Source: Streptomyces sp. NBC_00443 (GTDB lineage: Bacteria > Actinomycetota > Actinomycetes > Streptomycetales > Streptomycetaceae). Taken from it: a stretch of DNA of 64,000 bases. Location of the stretch: contig NZ_CP107917.1 of assembly GCF_036014175.1 (NCBI RefSeq), forward strand, positions 9,176,001-9,240,000, given 5' to 3'. The notes below the pieces were generated by a model that was not told the origin of the DNA, ran no database searches, and was given only the letters and a program-made list of their open reading frames with translations. Positions within the stretch are counted from its first letter, which is position 1, and every line of letters starts with the position of its first letter. The position numbers were made by a program, and so were the translations under genes. Below are positions 32,828-50,295 of the stretch, one piece after another.

Positions 32828-33856
32828 TCACAGCGATTCCGATCTCGTGTGACGGACCGCTCGCTGGTCCAAGCACGCAATCGCGTGGGGAGCAAGAGCG
32901 CAGATCGGGTGTGTGGCCCAGCCGTCAAACCGGCGCCTTGGCACAGGGGATGCCGGCCGTACGATGGGGATCCTGCCCTGGCTCCGCCCTATTGCTGGAT
33001 GTGCCGGGTAGCCGTGCGAAGTTGAGGAGTAAGGCTGACAGCCCGCCGAGCCCTCACGTCCACAAGCGCTGAACAGGGCGTATTCGAGCAGGTCGGGCGA
33101 GGCGTCGGACGGCCAGGTGTCAGTTGCCGCTAGTTGGTGTGCGACTGCGTGCATGAAGGCGAGGTAGACCGCGTAGCGGTGGGATGACCAGTGCCAGTCC
33201 CTCCAGACCCAGCAGGCGACCGAGCCGTCGGGATCGTAGCCCGTCTCTCGGCCGACCGCCCGGGCCAGCGACCGCAGGCGCCGGGCCAGAACGGCATCGA
33301 GGACGAGCGGCGCAGGGCCGGTTGCCGGAGGAAGCGTCTTGCCGACGAAGTACAGGAACTTGGTGTAGAACGACGGACCGAGCCAGGGAATGCGGCCCCG
33401 GAGCTCAGCGTAGGCCGCTTCGGCGCCGTACACGCTCAACTCGGTGACCGCACGGGCCAGCGCCGCGTCCAGGCCCTCGGCGGCCAGGATCTTGTGCAGG
33501 GTGGCGGGTCCGCTGCCGCCGGGCGAGCCACTCTTCCCCTTCCCCCACACATAGGTGGCGACCAGCGCCTCCCGGTACGCCTCTCGCCGTAGCGCGTCCG
33601 AGACGATCGACACCACGCCTGCCCGGCTGATTCCGGCATCACCGACTTGAGATGTCGAAGCCAGGGCTGAGGGCCAAGGGGTGATCTGCGCCCACCGGCT
33701 GGGGGAGTAGCGGACCGTGTGCCCGCCCGGGGTCCCGTCCGCCAACCTCGCTGCGCTCTCGCCCCACCACCGGCCCAGCGCCCGAAGGACCGTATCTGGC
33801 AGCAGACGCGCGGCCATCTCCCGGTCCACCGCATCCGCCTGGTCCTGTCTGCTCAT
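32828..33856 (-). CDS. OGG-fold protein (8-oxoguanine DNA glycosylase-like)
   Basis: ATG at 33856 with GGGGGGCGGG upstream. The first ~256 residues look like the streptomycete OGG-fold family: VVSIVSDALRREAYREALVA, GPSFYTKFLYFVGK (the helix-hairpin-helix-like Lys site), VACWVWRDWHWSSHRYAVYL and LLEYALFSA. Base-excision repair is the suggested role, not proven. Relatives usually end close to LEYALFSA. Here the frame runs on for ~85 residues of unlikely composition (RREGSAG-like, Ser/Pro/His-rich), so either a frameshift or a lost stop near 33075 has extended it, or the true C-terminus was displaced. Confidence 0.65.
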   Translation of the reverse strand: MSRQDQADAVDREMAARLLPDTVLRALGRWWGESAARLADGTPGGHTVRYSPSRWAQITPWPSALASTSQVGDAGISRAGVVSIVSDALRREAYREALVATYVWGKGKSGSPGGSGPATLHKILAAEGLDAALARAVTELSVYGAEAAYAELRGRIPWLGPSFYTKFLYFVGKTLPPATGPAPLVLDAVLARRLRSLARAVGRETGYDPDGSVACWVWRDWHWSSHRYAVYLAFMHAVAHQLAATDTWPSDASPDLLEYALFSACGREGSAGCQPYSSTSHGYPAHPAIGRSQGRIPIVRPASPVPRRRFDGWATHPICALAPHAIACLDQRAVRHTRSESL

Positions 33857-34081
33857 AGCCCGCCCCCCGAAGTCCTGCTCCCCGCCATGCCCTTGCGCCA
33901 CGCCCCCGCTCTCGCGCGACGCATTGGAGAAGTATGTGCCGCTCTCACCCCCTCCACGTCGACAAGCAGACAGGCGCTGCACGACGTAGGCGAGTCCTTC
34001 GGGGCGGGCCAGGCTGCGGCGGGCCATCAACCAGCGACGGTACGTGGGCGGATCCCGCTCGGGGAGGACGTTGACGGACAG

Positions 34082-37526: not shown

Positions 37527-39677
37527 TCAGCCGGTGGTCGCCTCGTGGAAGCGGCTCACCCAGTACGCGGTGCGATCCAGGTACGCCGTCTGTGCCGCCT
37601 CTCCGGTCTGGCCGTATGCGCCGCTGAACGTCTGGTATCCGCGGCCGGCGGGCGGGGTGGAGTCGGCCGGCTCGATGGAACTCCCTTCGTGCCACTCGTT
37701 GAAGGAGGTCACCGACACCCAGGTCGGGGACCCTCCGACGGCCGGGTTCAGGGCGTTGGACCATTGCCGGTCGTACGCCGCGCCATTGGCACGCTCCACG
37801 GTGGGCGTGGTGTTGCCCGGCACCGCCCGGTCGTCGATGTAGCCGGGCGCGACGGACGGAGCCCAGATCAGGCCGTTGGCACGGGCGTGGTCGCCGGCCT
37901 GCTTCCAGCCGGGCGCCGTGGCACCCGCGATGCCGTCGTAGGTGTACATGCCCGAGAAGTGCGCGATCTTCGTGGTGTCCGTGGTCTGGGCGAGGACGAT
38001 GCTCGTGTCGGTGACTTGGTCGAGTGCCGTCCAGTCGGTGATGTCCAGGCTCTGGAACACGTAGAACGCGCCCTTGTTTCCGTGGTCCGCCGAGCGGTGG
38101 AAGGCGGGGTGGCTGCCGTAGGTGCTGTTGATGTATTCGATGTCGGCGGCCGTCGATGCCCCCGTGCGGCCCGAGTACGGCTCCAGATGCCAGGCCACCT
38201 GGATGCCCTGCTCCTGCGCCGCGTCGAGGACACCGCGCGCGAGCCGGTCCTCGTAGCTGCCCCGGCCCCACCAGCTGTAGACGAGCACGCCGACTCCCGA
38301 CCGGGCGATCCACTTCATGTGCTGGGCAACGGCGCCGTCGAAGTCACCGGAGTCGTACGGGCCGAGCGCCGGGTAGAGATCGGCGCCGATGCTGTCGGGA
38401 GGGGCGTGCCCGCCCTGCTGCCAGTGCCGCCAGCCGCCGTTCACCGCCGGGCTCCCGTACCAGGGGTAGTAGAAGAGGTGTACGTCGTCGGACAGGGGTC
38501 CCGCAGCGAGTTCGGCGCCGATGCTGAAGGTGTCGATGTCGAACAGGGCTCCGCCTCCTCCGGTGAAGCGCAGGAAGAGCGGCCCTGAGGCGGAGGCGGA
38601 CAGAGTCGTCGTGACAGTCGTGAACGTCTCCCAGCCCCCGGTGACCGGTACCGCCACCGAACCGAGCAGGGTGCCGCCCGCCGAGCCGGACCGGATCTCG
38701 ATGGTGCCGCCCGCGCCCGCGGAGGACACCTTCGCGGTGAACGTCTTCGCCCCCGCGGTGGAGACGTGGGAGTAGCCCGCCCAGTCCCCGTTTTCGATGT
38801 AGCCCAGCGTCTGTCCGCCGCTGGCCGGGGCGTGCGCGGCGACCTGCACGCCAGAGCCGGAGCTGTACGACTCCGCCTCGATCTGTGCGTTACCGGCGGG
38901 AGCCGAGCAGTCGGCCGGCGCCTGCCCGGCGGCGTACCGGACCCCGCCCAGCAGCAGGGAACGGAAGGCCGGGTCGGCGTAGGACTCGATGGTGTGGCCG
39001 AGTCCGGTGTAGAAGGATCGGCCCGCGCCCTGGCTGTGGCACCAGGTGATGGGGTGGTCGGCGCCCATCGAGCCGCCGCTGTAGGTGCCTTCGTCCAGCG
39101 TCTGCAGGACATGGACGGTAGGGCGCGGATTGGCGCGGTAGTTGTACCACTCGTCGCTGCGGGTCCAGGTGGCGCCCAGGTGAGCGGTGGCTGGGTGGGT
39201 CCCGTCCTCGGTGCGGATCGTGGCCTGCTGGATCGCGGGGTGGCTCTGGAACCAGGCCCCGACGAGCTGTCCGTAGTAGGGCCAGTCGTACTCGGTGTCC
39301 GCCGCCGCGTGCACGCCTGCATAGCCCCCGCCGGAGTCGACGTAGGACTGGAACGCGGTCTGCTGAGCGGAGTTGAGGACGTCGCCGGTGGTGTTGAGGA
39401 ACACCACGGCCTCGTAGCTCGCGAGGTTCGAGGCGGTGAAGGCCCCGGCGTCCTCGGTGGCCGTGACGGTGAAGTCGTGCTGCCCGCCGAGTGTGCGCAG
39501 GGCGTCGATGCCGGCCGGGATCGCGTCGTGCCGGAAGCCGGCCGTCTTCGAGAACACCATGACCTCGAAGGAAGCCGCGTGTGCCGGGCCGACCGGGGCC
39601 AGAAGAGCGCCGAGCAGGCCCAGGACCAGGGCCGCGGTGCCGCGGCGCAGTCGCCGTATCAGGAGGATCATGGTCAT
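37527..39677 (-). CDS. Secreted ThuA-CBM6-GH99-like fusion protein
   Basis: A 716-residue exported protein with a signal peptide ending near GPAHAAS. Domain order: ThuA-like class I glutamine amidotransferase fold (about 36-245; VMVFSKTAGFRHDAIP, YAGVHAAADTEY, GLGHTIESY); a CBM6-type carbohydrate-binding module (about 252-370; IEAESYSSGSGVQ, LGYIENGDWAGY, FDIDTFSIG); then a GH99/GH71-like barrel (about 375-712; VHLFYYPWYGSP, GVLVYSWWGRG, VAWHLEPYSGR, WVSVTSFNEWHEGSSIEP). The last domain relates to endo-alpha-mannosidases. It is coupled by ATGA to the upstream sugar dehydrogenase. The two presumably act together on one extracellular glycan. The triple fusion is unusual. Confidence 0.85.
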   Translation of the reverse strand: MTMILLIRRLRRGTAALVLGLLGALLAPVGPAHAASFEVMVFSKTAGFRHDAIPAGIDALRTLGGQHDFTVTATEDAGAFTASNLASYEAVVFLNTTGDVLNSAQQTAFQSYVDSGGGYAGVHAAADTEYDWPYYGQLVGAWFQSHPAIQQATIRTEDGTHPATAHLGATWTRSDEWYNYRANPRPTVHVLQTLDEGTYSGGSMGADHPITWCHSQGAGRSFYTGLGHTIESYADPAFRSLLLGGVRYAAGQAPADCSAPAGNAQIEAESYSSGSGVQVAAHAPASGGQTLGYIENGDWAGYSHVSTAGAKTFTAKVSSAGAGGTIEIRSGSAGGTLLGSVAVPVTGGWETFTTVTTTLSASASGPLFLRFTGGGGALFDIDTFSIGAELAAGPLSDDVHLFYYPWYGSPAVNGGWRHWQQGGHAPPDSIGADLYPALGPYDSGDFDGAVAQHMKWIARSGVGVLVYSWWGRGSYEDRLARGVLDAAQEQGIQVAWHLEPYSGRTGASTAADIEYINSTYGSHPAFHRSADHGNKGAFYVFQSLDITDWTALDQVTDTSIVLAQTTDTTKIAHFSGMYTYDGIAGATAPGWKQAGDHARANGLIWAPSVAPGYIDDRAVPGNTTPTVERANGAAYDRQWSNALNPAVGGSPTWVSVTSFNEWHEGSSIEPADSTPPAGRGYQTFSGAYGQTGEAAQTAYLDRTAYWVSRFHEATTG

Positions 39678-42529
39678 CGCCCCTTTCGTGCCGCGGAGGC
39701 GGACCGGGTGAGCGTGAAGGTGTCGACGTCGAACAGGGAGCCGGAGCCTCCGGTGAAGGTGAGGTACAGCGGCCCCGATCCCGCGCCGTTGAGTGCGGTG
39801 CTGACGGTGGTGAAGGTGTCCCAGCTGCCGGTCACCGGAACCGTCACAGAGCCCAGCAGCGGCCCGGTCTGCGAGCCGGAGCGGAACTGGAGGGTGCCGC
39901 CGGCCCCGGCCGAGGAGACCCGGGCGGAGAGGGAAGCCGCGCCCGCGGTGGAGAGGGAGGCGTACCCGGCCCAGTCGCCGTTGTCGATGTAGCCCAGCGT
40001 CAGACCACCGCTGGCTGCGCCATGGGCCGCCGACTGCACACCCGAGGCGGAGCTGTACGACTCCGCCTCCCAGGGCGTGGTCGTGGTCGAGCCGGAGCCG
40101 AGTGTGAAGGCGTCGACGTCGAACAGGCTTCCCTGCCCGGTCGGGCCGCGGAACACCAGGAACAGTTCCGTGGTTCCGGCGGGTGCGCCGGAGAGGTTGG
40201 CGGTGACGTCGGTGAAGGTCTCCCAGCCGCCCGTTACCGGTACGGTCGCGGTGCCGAGCAGCGTGCCGGTGGCGGAACCGGCACGCACCTGCAGGGTGCC
40301 GCCCGCCCCGCCGGATGCCACCCGGGCGGTGAACTTCGTGGCGCCGGCGAGGACATACGGCTTGAACGAGATCCAGTCGCCGTCATCGGTGAAGCCGACC
40401 GTCCTGCCGCCCTCGGCGGTGGCGTGGTCGGCGATCTGGATCCCGGACTGGGCGCCGAAGTGCTCGCCCTGCCGGTGGCGCGGTTGCAGGGTGCGCACGG
40501 AGTGCGTGGTCAGGCCGCCGGCGTCGGTGTACTCGGCGTCGAAGACTCCGTAGAGGTTGGCGGCGCTGTCGTGTTCGCCGTCGGCTGGCACGGTGAGGGT
40601 GCCTTCGCAGCCGTTCGTGGAGGTGATGGCGTGGGTGTGGCTGTCATGGCCGAGGAGGTAGGTGACCTTCACCCTGGAGCAGTCGACGGTGCCGTCCTCG
40701 GGGTCGCCGACCTGCACCTTGAACGGCACAGTGTCACCGAAGGCGAACGGCTGTCCGTCGAGGGGTTGTTGAAGGGTCACCGTCGGCGCGGTGTTGCCCG
40801 CGGTGACCACCAGGCTGGCGGTACCGGTCAGCCCCTCCGGATCGCGGACGGTGAGAGTGGGTCGATACGTGCCCGCTGCGGTGTACGTGTGGCTGGGGTC
40901 GGCCTGCGTGGACGTGGTGCCGTCGCCGAAGTTCCAGGAGTAGGTCAGCGCCCCGCCCTCGGGATCGGAGCTGGCCTGCGAGGAGAACCGCACGGTGAGC
41001 GGCAGGCCGCCGGAGGTGCGGTCGGCGGAGGCCCGGGCGACGGGGTTGCGGTTGCTGCCCGCGATGTACTCGATGCGGTAAAGGCCCGAGTTGTTGCTGC
41101 CGGTGCCGTAGTCCAGGACGTACAGCGCGCCGTCGGGGCCGAAGTCGGTGTCCATCACCTGGGTGCCGTTCCAGGGGACGTCGTCGATCGTCCCGTAGGA
41201 CCCGTCGGTCTTGACCTCGATGGCCTTGATCCACTGGCGCCCGTACTCGGCGGCGAAGTAGCGGCCGTTCAGGGACTGCGGGAACTTCACCGTGGAGGTC
41301 GAGTCGGGGTCGTAGCGGTAGACCTCGCCGCCCATCGGGGACTCCGAACCACCGCCGAACTCGGGCGGTGAGCCGTCCAGTCCGTACTTGATCCAGCTGG
41401 GCTTGGCCGGGGGCAGCTGGGCCTGGCCGGTGTTGCGGAAGGAGTTATTCGCGGGGCCGCCCGCGCAGTTGTACTTGGCGGCCGAGGGGCCGCTCGGGAA
41501 GGTGTACTCGTTGTACGTCTCCCCGGTGGTGTTGGTGCCGGTGCAGTACGGCCAGCCGTAGTTGCCGGGCGAGGTGATGCGGTTGAACTCGACCTGGCCA
41601 CCCGGCCCTCGGTTGGGGTCGGTGCCGCCCGCGTCGGGGCCGTAGTCGCCCAGGTAGACCGTGCCGGTGGGCCGGTCGACGGACATCCGGAAGGGGTTGC
41701 GGAAGCCCATCGCGTAGATCTCGGGCCGGGTGCCGGCCGTGCCGGGCGCGAAGAGGTTGCCCGAGGGGATGGTGTAGCCGCCCGTGGCGGTCGGCTTGAT
41801 CCTCAGTACCTTGCCCCGCAGGTCGTTGGTGTTGCCGGAACTGCGCTGGGCGTCGAACTGCGGGTTGCGGTTGGTGCGTTCGTCGATCGGCGCGTACCCG
41901 GACGAGTCGAACGGGTTGGTGTCGTCGCCGGTCGTCAGGTAGAGGTTCCCGGCGGCGTCGAAGTCGATGTCGCCGCCGACGTGGCAGCACTGGCCGCGGT
42001 CGTTGGGCACTTCCAGGACGACCTTCTCGCCGGCCATGTCCAAGGTGCCGTCGGTGCGCAGCGTGAACCGCGACAGATTGAGGTGGCCCTTCCACGGCTC
42101 GAAGTCGGCGGCCGTACCCGTCGTCGGGGCGTCGCCCGCCGGTGTGTTCAGCTTGGGCGAGTAGTAGACGTACACGTACCGGTTGGTGGCGAAGGCGGGG
42201 TCGGCGGCGATTCCTTGCAGGCCCTCCTCGTCGTGCGTGTAGACGTCCAGTTTGCCGGCCTGCTTCGTGTTGCCTGCTGCGTCCGTGAGGCGGATCGTGC
42301 CATCGCGGGCGGTGTGCAGGACCGACCGGTCGGGCAGCACGGCCAGCGACATCGGCTCGCCCATCTCGGCAGCGCCGGTGGCGAGTTGGACCTGCTGGTA
42401 GTCGCCGGGCGGAAGGTCCGCCTGGGCGGCGGAGGCGAGGGTGGCCGTGGGTGCCGTCGAGGCGGCACCGGCCAGGATGAGCGCGAGTGCGGTGAGTGTT
42501 CTCAGTCCCGCGCGAGGGCGCCAAGACAT
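39674..42529 (-). CDS. Secreted PQQ-type sugar dehydrogenase with PKD and two CBM6 modules
   Basis: A 951-residue exported protein from the ATG at 42529 (AGGAAGGA upstream; an in-frame ATG at 42568 is less likely). After the signal peptide comes a six-bladed soluble glucose/sorbosone dehydrogenase-type propeller (about 40-475; EEGLQGIAADPAF, GDIDFDAAGNLYLTTGDD, AMGFRNPFRMSVD, GYGWPYC-like). Then a PKD domain (about 490-575; YSWNFGDGTTS), an Ig-like linker, and two CBM6 modules (about 690-815 and 825-945). It likely oxidises sugars on a bound polysaccharide. The last CBM6 is very similar to the one in the downstream fusion protein, so the module has been duplicated between the genes. Confidence 0.88.
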   Translation of the reverse strand: MSWRPRAGLRTLTALALILAGAASTAPTATLASAAQADLPPGDYQQVQLATGAAEMGEPMSLAVLPDRSVLHTARDGTIRLTDAAGNTKQAGKLDVYTHDEEGLQGIAADPAFATNRYVYVYYSPKLNTPAGDAPTTGTAADFEPWKGHLNLSRFTLRTDGTLDMAGEKVVLEVPNDRGQCCHVGGDIDFDAAGNLYLTTGDDTNPFDSSGYAPIDERTNRNPQFDAQRSSGNTNDLRGKVLRIKPTATGGYTIPSGNLFAPGTAGTRPEIYAMGFRNPFRMSVDRPTGTVYLGDYGPDAGGTDPNRGPGGQVEFNRITSPGNYGWPYCTGTNTTGETYNEYTFPSGPSAAKYNCAGGPANNSFRNTGQAQLPPAKPSWIKYGLDGSPPEFGGGSESPMGGEVYRYDPDSTSTVKFPQSLNGRYFAAEYGRQWIKAIEVKTDGSYGTIDDVPWNGTQVMDTDFGPDGALYVLDYGTGSNNSGLYRIEYIAGSNRNPVARASADRTSGGLPLTVRFSSQASSDPEGGALTYSWNFGDGTTSTQADPSHTYTAAGTYRPTLTVRDPEGLTGTASLVVTAGNTAPTVTLQQPLDGQPFAFGDTVPFKVQVGDPEDGTVDCSRVKVTYLLGHDSHTHAITSTNGCEGTLTVPADGEHDSAANLYGVFDAEYTDAGGLTTHSVRTLQPRHRQGEHFGAQSGIQIADHATAEGGRTVGFTDDGDWISFKPYVLAGATKFTARVASGGAGGTLQVRAGSATGTLLGTATVPVTGGWETFTDVTANLSGAPAGTTELFLVFRGPTGQGSLFDVDAFTLGSGSTTTTPWEAESYSSASGVQSAAHGAASGGLTLGYIDNGDWAGYASLSTAGAASLSARVSSAGAGGTLQFRSGSQTGPLLGSVTVPVTGSWDTFTTVSTALNGAGSGPLYLTFTGGSGSLFDVDTFTLTRSASAARKGR

Positions 42530-43244
42530 GGGGGGTTGTCCTTCCTGACGGTGAGTAATGTCAGGCAAGGCGCGCGCCGGCCGCGCTTGCCGGGTGCTGG
42601 TGCGGGGTTCGGCTGCGGACGTGCCGTACCGCCGCGTGTGGGCGCTGTGTGCGGTGTGCTGTGCTGTGTGCTGTACGTGAATTGCGCTGCAGGTGGAGGG
42701 AATTGCGGCACTCTGCTTGCGATTTGCATGCTGCTGAGTGCCGGTGAATATGTCAAGGCCCTGTCAAAATGCTGGTGCGGAGGAGGCCCCCGCCGACACC
42801 AGCGGGTTCCAGCCGCCGGCGGGACTGACCGGCCGCCTTCCGCAAGGTGCGACAGCTGTCAGCGATTGCGGCGATGGCCGGGGTGCTCAGGGCGGTTGCA
42901 GGCAGGGCGCCCGCTACCGCGGCTGCCGTACCGGCGGTGGTTGGTCTCGGAGCGGGGCGGTACCGGTCGACGAGGCGTCGGGTGCAGGGGTGCGGCGAAG
43001 CGAGTTCGCCGCTCGGCACCGTCGTGGTCTGTCGACCATGGTGTCGAAAGGTCGGTCGATCGGCGGACCCGTCCGCGCAGGGCGGAGGCGGGTTCTCCCG
43101 CGGAGGACAGGTTGTCGATGCGTCTGCATCCAGGTGAGACCGAGACTATTGGCTGGCGGGCGGTGACCGTGCTCGGTGCCGTCCGCCAGCTGCGCGATTA
43201 TGTGGCGGCCATGCCCCAGGAGGCGGTGGTGCGCCGCGCCGCGG
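42530..43244. other. Upstream region of the sugar dehydrogenase operon
   Basis: About 715 bp. The promoter of the operon should be here. TGTGCTG-rich low-complexity DNA occurs at about 42638-42680 and two AATTGCG copies at about 42680-42705. I see no gene. Confidence 0.45.
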
Positions 43245-48322: not shown

Positions 48323-49033
48323 GTGAACATCAACGGCGCTCGTGTGCTGGTGGCCGGCGCCACCGGCGTTCTCGGCAGCGCTCTCACGGCCGAGCTGGCC
48401 GCGCGGGGAGCCCGCCCGGCTCTCGCCGGACGCGACGCGATCCGGCTGGCTCAGGCCGCTCGCGCCCACCCAGGGTCTCCGACGGCGGAGTTCGACGCGT
48501 ACGACCCGTCGTCCTGCGCGCGTGCGGTGCACGCTGTCGCCGCCGAGCTCGGGGGCCTCGACGCATGTGTGACGGCCTTCGGCGCCGTGGGCTTCGGTAC
48601 CTCCCGCGAGGTGGGCGACACGGTCGCCGAGTATCTGATGGCGGTCAACTTCCTCGCCCCCGCCGCATTCTTCCGCGCCGCGCTCCAAGTCCTGCCACCT
48701 CACTCGGTGATCGCGGCCTTCAGCGGAGTGGTGGCCGAGGGTCCGCAGCCACGGATGGCCGACTACAGCGCTTCGAAGGCGGCACTGAGCGCATGGCTCG
48801 CTGCTGCCCGCCGCGAGGCGCGGGGCACTGGCGTGCAGGTGCTGGATGTGCCGCCGGGCCACCTTGACACCGGTTTGGCCGACCGGTCCGTCGCGGGAAC
48901 GGCCCCGCCGATGCCCCCGGGTGGCGACCCCGGTCCGGTCGTCAAGGCGGTCGTCGACGCGATGGAGTCTGACGCCGAACTCGTGCGCACGGCTCCCGAC
49001 GGAGCGCCCGTCGTCGAGCGGCGAGCCAGGTGA
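48323..49033 (+). CDS. litQ: Short-chain dehydrogenase, LitQ-like
   Basis: A 236-residue classical-type SDR from GTG 48323 (GGAGCGAGG upstream). GATGVLGSALTAEL binds NAD(P); a Ser near FSGVVAEG and the YSASK motif form the active site. GPVxxG-like segments end the fold. It overlaps crtY by GTGA and is the first gene of a litQ-crtY-crtT-crtU operon. The S. coelicolor locus has an oxidoreductase gene litQ next to litR (from memory); the biochemical role there is not known. Confidence 0.82.
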   Translation: MNINGARVLVAGATGVLGSALTAELAARGARPALAGRDAIRLAQAARAHPGSPTAEFDAYDPSSCARAVHAVAAELGGLDACVTAFGAVGFGTSREVGDTVAEYLMAVNFLAPAAFFRAALQVLPPHSVIAAFSGVVAEGPQPRMADYSASKAALSAWLAAARREARGTGVQVLDVPPGHLDTGLADRSVAGTAPPMPPGGDPGPVVKAVVDAMESDAELVRTAPDGAPVVERRAR

Positions 49034-50295
49034 GCCGGCCCGCAACCCTTCCCGATCAGTGGTCCGACGTGGTCATCGTGGGCGGCGGGGCGGCCGGCCT
49101 CTGCCTCGCCCTTCAACTGACCGCGACCGCGACGACCACCCGTTCCGTCGTCGTGGTGGAGCCGCCGGAGGGGCCGTCACGGCCTCGTGAACGCACCTGG
49201 TGCTTCTGGGACGAAGGCTCATGCGACTTCGAGGAAGCGATCAGCGCCTCCTGGTCCCGCCTACGGGTCCACGGAACCGACGGCAGAGAGATCACGGTCG
49301 ATCCGGTTCCGCTGCGCTACCGCATGCTGCGATCGACGCAGTTCGAGCAGTTCGTGCACGCCCGGCTGGCGGCGCACCCCCGCGCGCGTGTCCTGCGTGC
49401 CACAGCCGGTGCCGTACGGGACACCGCCGACGGGGCGGCCGTCAGCTGCGTGGCATCCGACGGCCGGCCGCTGACGCTGCGCGCCCGCCATCTCTTCGAC
49501 TCTCGTCCCCTACAGGCTCTGCCTCCGGCTCGCACGTGCTTGTTGCAGCATTTCCGCGGCTGGTTCGTGCGCACGGCCGCGGAGCGGTTCGACCCCACGG
49601 TCGCCGACCTGATGGACTTCCGGGTGCCGCAGCCACGTCACGGCCTCGCCTTCGGCTATGTGCTGCCCCTCGCGTCCGACCGCGCCCTCATCGAGTACAC
49701 CGAGTTCTCCCGTGCCCCGTTGACCACCGCGGCGTACGAGGCGTCGCTCGGCCACTACTGCCGAGAGATCCTGCGCCTGGGCGCGTTCACGGTGGAAGCG
49801 GCGGAGCAAGGTGCCATCCCTATGACCGACGCCCGCTTCCCGCGTCGGATCGGGCCCGCTGTCTTCCGTATCGGCACGGCCGGCGGCGCGACCCGACCCG
49901 CAACCGGCTACACCTTCGCCGCCGCGCAGCGCCAGAGCCGGGCCATCGCCGACGCCCTGGAGGCCGGGCGCCCCCTGGTGCCCCCGCCGCACGGGCGACG
50001 GGCGCTGGCCATGGACGCGGTACTCCTGCGGGCGCTGGACACCGGGCGGATCGATGGCCCTGACCTCTTCACCGACCTGTTCAGCCGGATCCCCACGGAA
50101 CGGCTGCTGCGCTTCCTGGACGGTGCGACCACGCTCCGGGAGGAGTGGGCCATCGGACTGCGCACCCCCATCGGCCCGATGCTGCGCACCGCCGTCGAAC
50201 TTCCCCTTCTGCCCTGCCACTTCCGTCCCGCACCACGTCCCGCATCACGATCCGCACCCCAATCCGCATTACGATCCGCGGAGAGCTCCTCATGA
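49030..50295 (+). CDS. crtY: Lycopene beta-cyclase
   Basis: A 421-residue flavoprotein of the CrtY family. VVIVGGGAAGLCLALQL binds the dinucleotide, ERTWCFWDEG and LRYRMLRSTQFEQFVHARL are family marks, HFRGWFVRT and IEYTEFS lie in the cyclase core, and GGATRPATGYTFAAAQRQS is the conserved late motif. It closes both ends of lycopene to beta-carotene. Overlaps by 4 bp at each end show coupled translation. The last ~20 residues are encoded by a degenerate 12-bp repeat and are probably a dispensable tail. Confidence 0.93.
   Translation: MSRPATLPDQWSDVVIVGGGAAGLCLALQLTATATTTRSVVVVEPPEGPSRPRERTWCFWDEGSCDFEEAISASWSRLRVHGTDGREITVDPVPLRYRMLRSTQFEQFVHARLAAHPRARVLRATAGAVRDTADGAAVSCVASDGRPLTLRARHLFDSRPLQALPPARTCLLQHFRGWFVRTAAERFDPTVADLMDFRVPQPRHGLAFGYVLPLASDRALIEYTEFSRAPLTTAAYEASLGHYCREILRLGAFTVEAAEQGAIPMTDARFPRRIGPAVFRIGTAGGATRPATGYTFAAAQRQSRAIADALEAGRPLVPPPHGRRALAMDAVLLRALDTGRIDGPDLFTDLFSRIPTERLLRFLDGATTLREEWAIGLRTPIGPMLRTAVELPLLPCHFRPAPRPASRSAPQSALRSAESSS
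50229..50276. repeat. Degenerate 12-bp tandem repeat at the 3' end of crtY
   Basis: Four 12-base units start at 50229, 50241, 50253 and 50265 with consensus CGCAYYACGATC. They encode an Arg/Ser/Pro/Ala-rich tail and stay in frame. Confidence 0.7.

Follow-up and report, generated by a model that had tools for sequence, protein, structure and literature searches.

A conserved actinobacterial gene pair joining ThuA, GH99 and a sugar-dehydrogenase-type propeller

Every domain of the gene pair considered here is already known, and several described systems each share a part of it. The pair lies in a stretch of 64,000 nucleotides from Streptomyces sp. NBC_00443 (contig NZ_CP107917.1, positions 9,176,001 to 9,240,000 of the forward strand), hereafter called the window. 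It consists of gene A, which encodes a GSDH-type propeller followed by a PKD domain and two carbohydrate-binding modules of family 6 (CBM6), and gene B, which encodes a ThuA domain, a CBM6 and a glycoside hydrolase domain of family 99 (GH99). The pairing of the two genes is confirmed as more than chance, because it is found in all 27 fetched loci of the genus in which ThuA and GH99 share a chain and because the same partners recur in other actinobacterial genera. It is very probable that the two proteins cooperate in the degradation of a mannose polymer.

The closest module set is that of M768_06655, a protein of the secreted complex of Cellulosimicrobium cellulans F16 with the order ThuA-GSDH-PKD-CBM6-PKD (PMC4562250). 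It unites in one protein the ThuA, GSDH, PKD and CBM6 modules that the window divides between two, but GH99 is absent from its five Pfam matches, and the passage that describes it assigns the protein no activity. The Bacteroides GH99 endo-alpha-mannanases (BtGH99, 4acy/4acz; BxGH99, 4ad1) resemble gene B over the whole catalytic domain and in the HLEPY and EWHE motifs and the mannanase-type Trp. In gene B, however, ThuA and CBM6 are joined to this putative mannanase domain in one chain, and the partner gene encodes a GSDH-type protein. With the pyrroloquinoline quinone (PQQ) aldose sugar dehydrogenases (3das, Adh of S. coelicolor; 3a9g; 2g8s, Asd of E. coli) and the fungal enzymes of auxiliary activity family 12 (AA12; 6jt5, 6h7t), the propeller of gene A has in common the fold, the His and the Arg-Asn-Pro, and the secreted fungal CcSDH carries an attached carbohydrate-binding module, as gene A does (PMC4133262). 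Gene A nevertheless belongs to a divergent subclass, whose Pfam match stops at position 223-242 of the 332-position profile (238 in gene A), and Gln-Val-Met of gene A is aligned, weakly, with the Arg-x-Arg of E. coli Asd.

The fourth comparison is with the 3-keto-glycoside route, represented by the LacABC dehydrogenases and by the PF06439 (DUF1080) hydrolase BT2157. Gfo/Idh/MocA dehydrogenases act in this route. PF06439, ThuA, Gfo/Idh/MocA and AP_endonuc_2 genes stand together with the same GSDH subclass at a paralogous locus of the source genome (L093). In the window, by contrast, a secreted propeller of the GSDH type would serve as the oxidoreductase, and the pair has GH99 and lacks PF06439. 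The open-access literature yielded no description of GH99 together with ThuA. Nor did it yield, in a search that did not cover papers on GH99 in Streptomyces, a tie of GH99 to the ThuA/GSDH set, the GSDH subclass or the PF06439 link. A first-pass annotation of this DNA had suggested that the system was undescribed, which agrees with these searches, and its interpretation is partly supported overall; the PF06439 link was absent from it.

Layout and conservation of the pair

Both genes are read from the minus strand, with the following features:

42530..42591, minus: conserved 60-nt leader of gene A, a GC-rich stretch and then CCTGAC-loop-GTCAGG running into the Shine-Dalgarno sequence
39674..42529, minus: gene A, 951 amino acids, apparently exported; GSDH-type propeller, PKD, immunoglobulin-like (Ig-like) stretch, CBM6, CBM6; its ATG start is preceded by AGGAAGGA
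41063..42412, minus: GSDH-like propeller domain of gene A (PF07995, 2.6e-36, profile 3-238 of 332)
40802..41053, minus: PKD domain of gene A (PF18911, PKD_4, 4.5e-22)
40478..40795, minus: Ig-like region of gene A (PF17957, Big_7, 0.034; weak and below cut-off, kept in relatives)
40100..40471, minus: first CBM6 of gene A (PF03422)
39701..40069, minus: second CBM6 of gene A (PF03422), 70% identical to the CBM6 of gene B
39674..39677, minus: ATGA overlap of the gene A stop and the gene B start
37527..39677, minus: gene B, 716 amino acids, apparently exported; ThuA-CBM6-GH99
38931..39563, minus: ThuA domain of gene B (PF06283, 1.3e-79)
38520..38879, minus: CBM6 of gene B (PF03422, 1.7e-30)
37545..38495, minus: GH99 catalytic domain of gene B (PF16317, 5.4e-58; BtGH99 4acz, 4.9e-50)
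37686..37700, minus: NEWHE motif with the two catalytic Glu of GH99

The first-pass annotation had proposed two genes coupled by an ATGA overlap, and both open reading frames and their junction are where it placed them. Its further claim that the CBM6 modules are near-identical does not hold, the pairwise amino-acid identities being 56%, 54% and 70% (range 54-70%). Pfam matches exceed the curated cut-offs for GSDH, PKD_4 and CBM_6 in gene A (CBM_6 in two stretches, 4.7e-61) and for ThuA (267.8 bits against a cut-off of 33.4), CBM_6 and Glyco_hydro_99 in gene B. NCBIfam gave no match to gene B, and its matches to gene A were all below cut-off. Both proteins begin with N-termini that by eye resemble signal peptides and are presumably secreted. 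The pair sits near one end of the 9.45 Mb, single-contig source genome, which in total contains one GH99, six ThuA and five GSDH matches.

GH99 matches are found in 49 of the 392 genomes of the genus sample, the source genome included, and 50 loci were fetched around the matches of the other 48. A ThuA-GH99 chain is present at 27 of these 50 loci (24 with CBM6, three without), each time with a GSDH-PKD-Ig-CBM6 gene directly upstream on the same strand (27/27). For each of the 27 relatives a start codon falls in the range from a 4-base overlap to a 7-base gap after the upstream stop. Five more loci of the genus combine a stand-alone GH99 with a gene A-type GSDH in the fetched DNA (L045, L046, L049, L057 and L051, the last with its GSDH gene cut at the edge of that DNA). 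For the other 18, some of which lie at contig ends, the fetched DNA gave no strong GSDH match; seven of the 18 (L086-L092) hold weak GH99 matches only. At one of the 50 loci (L084, G005 C1:1969287-1970224) the GH99 part of a ThuA-GH99 gene is split over two frames, by a frameshift or a sequencing error.

A scan of named genomes gave 520 relatives. The best 80 (L100-L179) were examined, with GSDH in 65, ThuA in 61 and both in 59 of them within the fetched DNA; since this set leans towards the query, these shares are not unbiased rates. Both partners accompany GH99 in loci of, among others, Nonomuraea, Sphaerisporangium, Microbispora, Microtetraspora, Actinomadura and Amycolatopsis, as well as of Plantactinospora, Phytohabitans, Catellatospora, Dactylosporangium and Actinophytocola, while the fetched DNA of all seven Planotetraspora loci has neither. 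The modules are spread over two genes, over three (L153), or joined in one chain, either as ThuA-GSDH-PKD-CBM6-GH99 (L139, L141 and L143; seen by Pfam for L139 and L141) or as GSDH-PKD-CBM6-CBM6-GH99 (L140, by Pfam). The fusion of ThuA, CBM6 and GH99, which had been thought uncommon, recurs in Streptomyces and in other actinobacteria, and the pairing, as the earlier annotation had supposed, goes beyond chance. GH99 itself is rare in the phylum sample (24 of 396 genomes, 21 above cut-off). On a GH99 tree of 110 rows with many weak branches, the arrangements need at least 11 changes, a figure that overestimates the real changes because rows cut at contig ends count as GH99 alone. Eight of the 50 genus loci were dropped from these rows by a score and length filter, namely L084 with its split GH99 and L086-L092 with their weak matches.

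The GH99 domain and the propeller

The GH99 match of gene B is full length (197.2 bits against a Pfam cut-off of 33, profile 2-340 of 341), and comparison with the solved endo-alpha-mannanases, of which 4acz scores 4.9e-50, finds their motifs kept. NEWHE, HLEPY and SWWG are all present and align with BtGH99, NEWHE being invariant in 22 sequences. EW[H/G]E holds the catalytic pair of the family and H[I/L]EPY is a conserved motif (PMC11025385). SWWG aligns with the TWWG of BtGH99 and places a Trp rather than a Tyr at the -2 subsite position (position 189, assigned by reading the BtGH99 alignment); a Trp there is the mark of the mannanase type in a 2023 report on GH99 evolution (PMC11025385). Two genes of the GH92 mannosidase family lie elsewhere in the source genome. 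The GH99 domain of gene B is likely to be an endo-alpha-mannanase, and the family assignment made in the first-pass annotation stands. Two side observations concern the family. A Kutzneria GH99 (L166:5785-9327, plus) is fused to F5/8C, GH3 and PA14 domains. The stand-alone GH99 of L046 and L045 is accompanied by a protein (L046:9806-11134, minus; L045:7420-8748, plus) with a trace of GH99 similarity in L046 (4.6e-4) and none in L045, perhaps a member of another GH71/99-like family.

A model of the gene A propeller built from 29 diverse sequences reached a predicted local distance difference test score (pLDDT) of 90.5; a first model from 21 close sequences (pLDDT 58.3) was discarded. The nearest solved fold is 3a9g (Z 40.7 over 328 residues, root-mean-square deviation 2.1), followed by 3das of S. 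coelicolor (Z 37.0), the hedgehog-interacting protein (31.6) and the fungal AA12 structures 6h7t (29.4) and 6jt5 (28.7). The model supports a sugar-dehydrogenase fold, and the type assigned to the propeller in the first-pass annotation is upheld at the level of fold only. His144, Asp163 and Arg-Asn-Pro (R238-P240, domain numbering) are invariant in the 29 diverse sequences, and the conserved His aligns with that of soluble glucose dehydrogenase (s-GDH). Directly before this His stand two cysteines (Cys-Cys-His, residues 181-183 of gene A), invariant in 21 sequences; a vicinal disulphide between them at the active site is conceivable.

ThuA, PF06439 and possible modes of action

The GSDH subclass to which gene A belongs is linked to ThuA and PF06439 well beyond the window. 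A co-location count in 24 genomes of the genus took 80 of 82 GSDH rows, along with the PF06439 rows of E up to 3.6e-31 (38 of 61) and the ThuA rows of E up to 5.3e-50 (54 of 75). GSDH matches that end at profile positions 223-242 of 332, as that of gene A does (3-238), all have ThuA or PF06439 no more than 10 kb away (44 of 44 rows), against none of the 34 rows of the long-profile class; the two classes were drawn by profile end after the table had been inspected, and two rows (end 289-290) fall in neither. Among the strong PF06439 domains, 33 of 38 lie at most 5 kb from a GSDH, where about 0.8% would be expected within 10 kb. PF06439 also enters the GH99 loci themselves: nine relatives (L129-L132, L134-L136, L138 and L149; Pfam check on L132) carry ThuA-PF06439-CBM6-GH99 in one chain, and in seven others (L152, L163-L165, L171, L173 and L177; Pfam for L163 and L173) it is part of a ThuA gene near GH99. 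A single recurring module thereby brings together three families that had been poorly connected: ThuA, the divergent GSDH subclass and PF06439.

In the source genome PF06439 is found elsewhere, alongside two other ThuA-GSDH units. One of these paralogues (L093, C1:1465000-1482000) is a single open frame of 1280 amino acids, GSDH-PKD-CBM6-ThuA-PF06439, with AP_endonuc_2, Gfo/Idh/MocA and sugar ABC transporter genes as neighbours; many other genomes of the genus also have PF06439 open frames of similar length. The other (L094:5993-11884, C1:1302992-1308883) is a gene for ThuA-GSDH. Next to it are a PF06439 protein that bears a plastocyanin/azurin-type copper domain and, on the other strand, a multicopper oxidase; these copper proteins are a possible extracellular electron path. 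BT2157, a member of PF06439 under its name DUF1080, is cited as a 3-ketotrehalose hydrolase (PMC9007349). The link to this family points to 3-keto-glycoside chemistry rather than to simple sugar oxidation.

The account that we favour, tentatively and at a strength a little short of probable, is that the pair is a conserved secreted actinobacterial unit for alpha-mannan in which cleavage inside the chain is coupled to oxidation. It builds on what is directly observed, namely the domains, motifs, folds and linkage and the occurrence of PF06439 in relatives and paralogues. GH99 would cut inside the alpha-mannan, for which we infer a fungal or yeast mannan as the most likely source, and the CBM6 modules would anchor both proteins to it. 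The GSDH-like propeller would oxidise the polymer or pieces of it to 3-keto-glycosides, C3 being the most likely position; ThuA might then act on the oxidised sugar, and a PF06439 hydrolase, in cis or presumably in trans, would cleave the 3-keto-glycoside. ThuA, for which no known activity came to light in the analysis and whose solved relatives 4jqs and 4e5v carry the names hypothetical or putative, gains from this a defined setting and a substrate class for tests. Should the oxidation prove real, soil actinobacteria would break alpha-mannan down through hydrolysis coupled to oxidation. The open-access literature searched gave no account of such a mode, which might be of use in the processing of mannan and N-glycans.

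A number of observations weigh against this account. The window pair has no PF06439, which is also absent from 49 of the 58 ThuA-GH99 chains in the tree, and GSDH is missing from the fetched DNA in 24 of the 110 GH99 rows, some of them at contig ends. Oxidation at C3 by a propeller of this fold was found nowhere in the analysis; the solved members go by the names of aldose, glucose or pyranose dehydrogenase, or of hedgehog-interacting protein. As an exception to the pattern of the 24 genomes, a long-profile GSDH of the source genome adjoins a PA14-CBM35-PF06439 protein (L099:5178-9839, minus; C1:8517177-8521838). The Arg-Ile-Arg in the last blade of E. coli Asd (2g8s), which we take to be the basic residues that anchor PQQ, aligns with Gln-Val-Met in gene A, over a weak stretch of 16 bits. 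Of the 28 pair-bearing genomes, only 3 have a PqqE above its cut-off, and the source genome is not among them; two others show partial matches (220 and 183 bits). PQQ would need to come from scavenging, unless a different cofactor serves. The alignment does not decide the use of PQQ, since the fungal CcSDH lacks several PQQ residues and is PQQ-dependent all the same (PMC4133262). Finally, PF06439 also includes an endo-xanthanase/lichenase (PMC9007349), and the family name therefore suggests 3-keto chemistry and does not prove it.

A broader version, which we think rather unlikely as a whole, sees the window pair as the alpha-mannan form of a general extracellular 3-keto-glycan pathway. In it a secreted propeller of the GSDH fold, and not a Gfo/Idh/MocA or flavin enzyme, would oxidise glycosides at C3 and ThuA would process the keto-sugar; the cutter would be swappable, with a PF06439 hydrolase or GH99 in that role or the two joined in a single chain, and the pair would be under the control of the conserved leader of gene A, which could hide the ribosome-binding site. 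Oxidation may instead take place at C1, an alternative that strikes us as doubtful: GH99 would free manno-oligosaccharides, the propeller would oxidise their reducing ends to lactones or mannonate in the manner of classical aldose dehydrogenases, an intracellular aldonate dehydratase would follow and ThuA would be accessory. The nearest folds are indeed aldose sugar dehydrogenases, including the PQQ-bound Adh of S. coelicolor (3das), and the loci with stand-alone GH99 (L045, L046, L049, L051 and L057) hold in their fetched DNA a GSDH and a dehydratase of one sequence cluster. For the dehydratases of L044 and L046 the matching group within the enolase superfamily is ManD, but at 359 (L044) and 344 bits (L046) against a ManD cut-off of 550, and they are not accepted as proven mannonate dehydratases. 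Moreover, the 12 kb of L044 contain no GSDH, a Pfam scan of ten window open reading frames around the pair found no such dehydratase gene, and the C1 route leaves the tie between GSDH and PF06439 unexplained.

The propeller and ThuA could also be non-catalytic binding or scaffold modules, which would make the pair a GH99 mannanase rich in carbohydrate-binding modules and equipped with adaptors. The fold includes the hedgehog-interacting protein, the Arg-x-Arg stretch seems lost, most pair genomes lack a PqqE above cut-off, and the ThuA-GSDH-PKD-CBM6-PKD protein of Cellulosimicrobium belongs to a secreted multienzyme complex (PMC4562250). We nonetheless hold this to be unlikely: the hedgehog-interacting protein, though a good match, ranks below the dehydrogenases (Z 31.6 against 40.7), the His, Asp and Arg-Asn-Pro are invariant in diverse sequences, the fungal CcSDH is PQQ-dependent although several PQQ residues are missing from it (PMC4133262), and a paralogue adjoins copper proteins. 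Co-location alone is not function, and genes A and B might be neighbours by chance that share none. However, all 27 genus loci have the pairing, with start codons on the upstream stop or close to it. This and the conserved leader speak against chance, and the one-chain forms of other genera already contradict it; we give it hardly any credence.

The leader of gene A and neighbouring genes

Directly before the start of gene A come, in order, a GC-rich sequence, CCTGAC, a loop of variable length and GTCAGGAAGGA. The core pattern GCGCCTTGCCTGA occurs once each in 63 of 194 loci, and the leader lies upstream of GSDH in many of L055-L084 and L100-L171 and in L189. Strong hits of a covariance model of the leader (E <= 3.3e-7) numbered 29 across 66 sources and 27 across 61; many of these hits match by construction, since the model was built from 41 leaders. 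All 54 strong hits that were measured (all but the window itself and L189) end at most 200 bases upstream of the GSDH domain. Rfam contains no match to the leader. The stem is kept in 98.8% of cells, and no pair shows a two-sided change. The element may be either an RNA hairpin or a DNA operator, and the varying loop length alone leans to the hairpin. Weak hits of the model (E 0.5-1) lie upstream of GSDH in L045, L046, L049, L057 and L194; by eye, arms of CCTGTGC/GCACAGG are seen in L045, L049 and L190, and the arms in L194 do not match.

Two other genes near the pair are apparently unrelated to it, an open reading frame for an OGG-like 8-oxoguanine glycosylase (window 32828-34030, minus) and a lycopene cyclase gene (window 49030-50295, plus).

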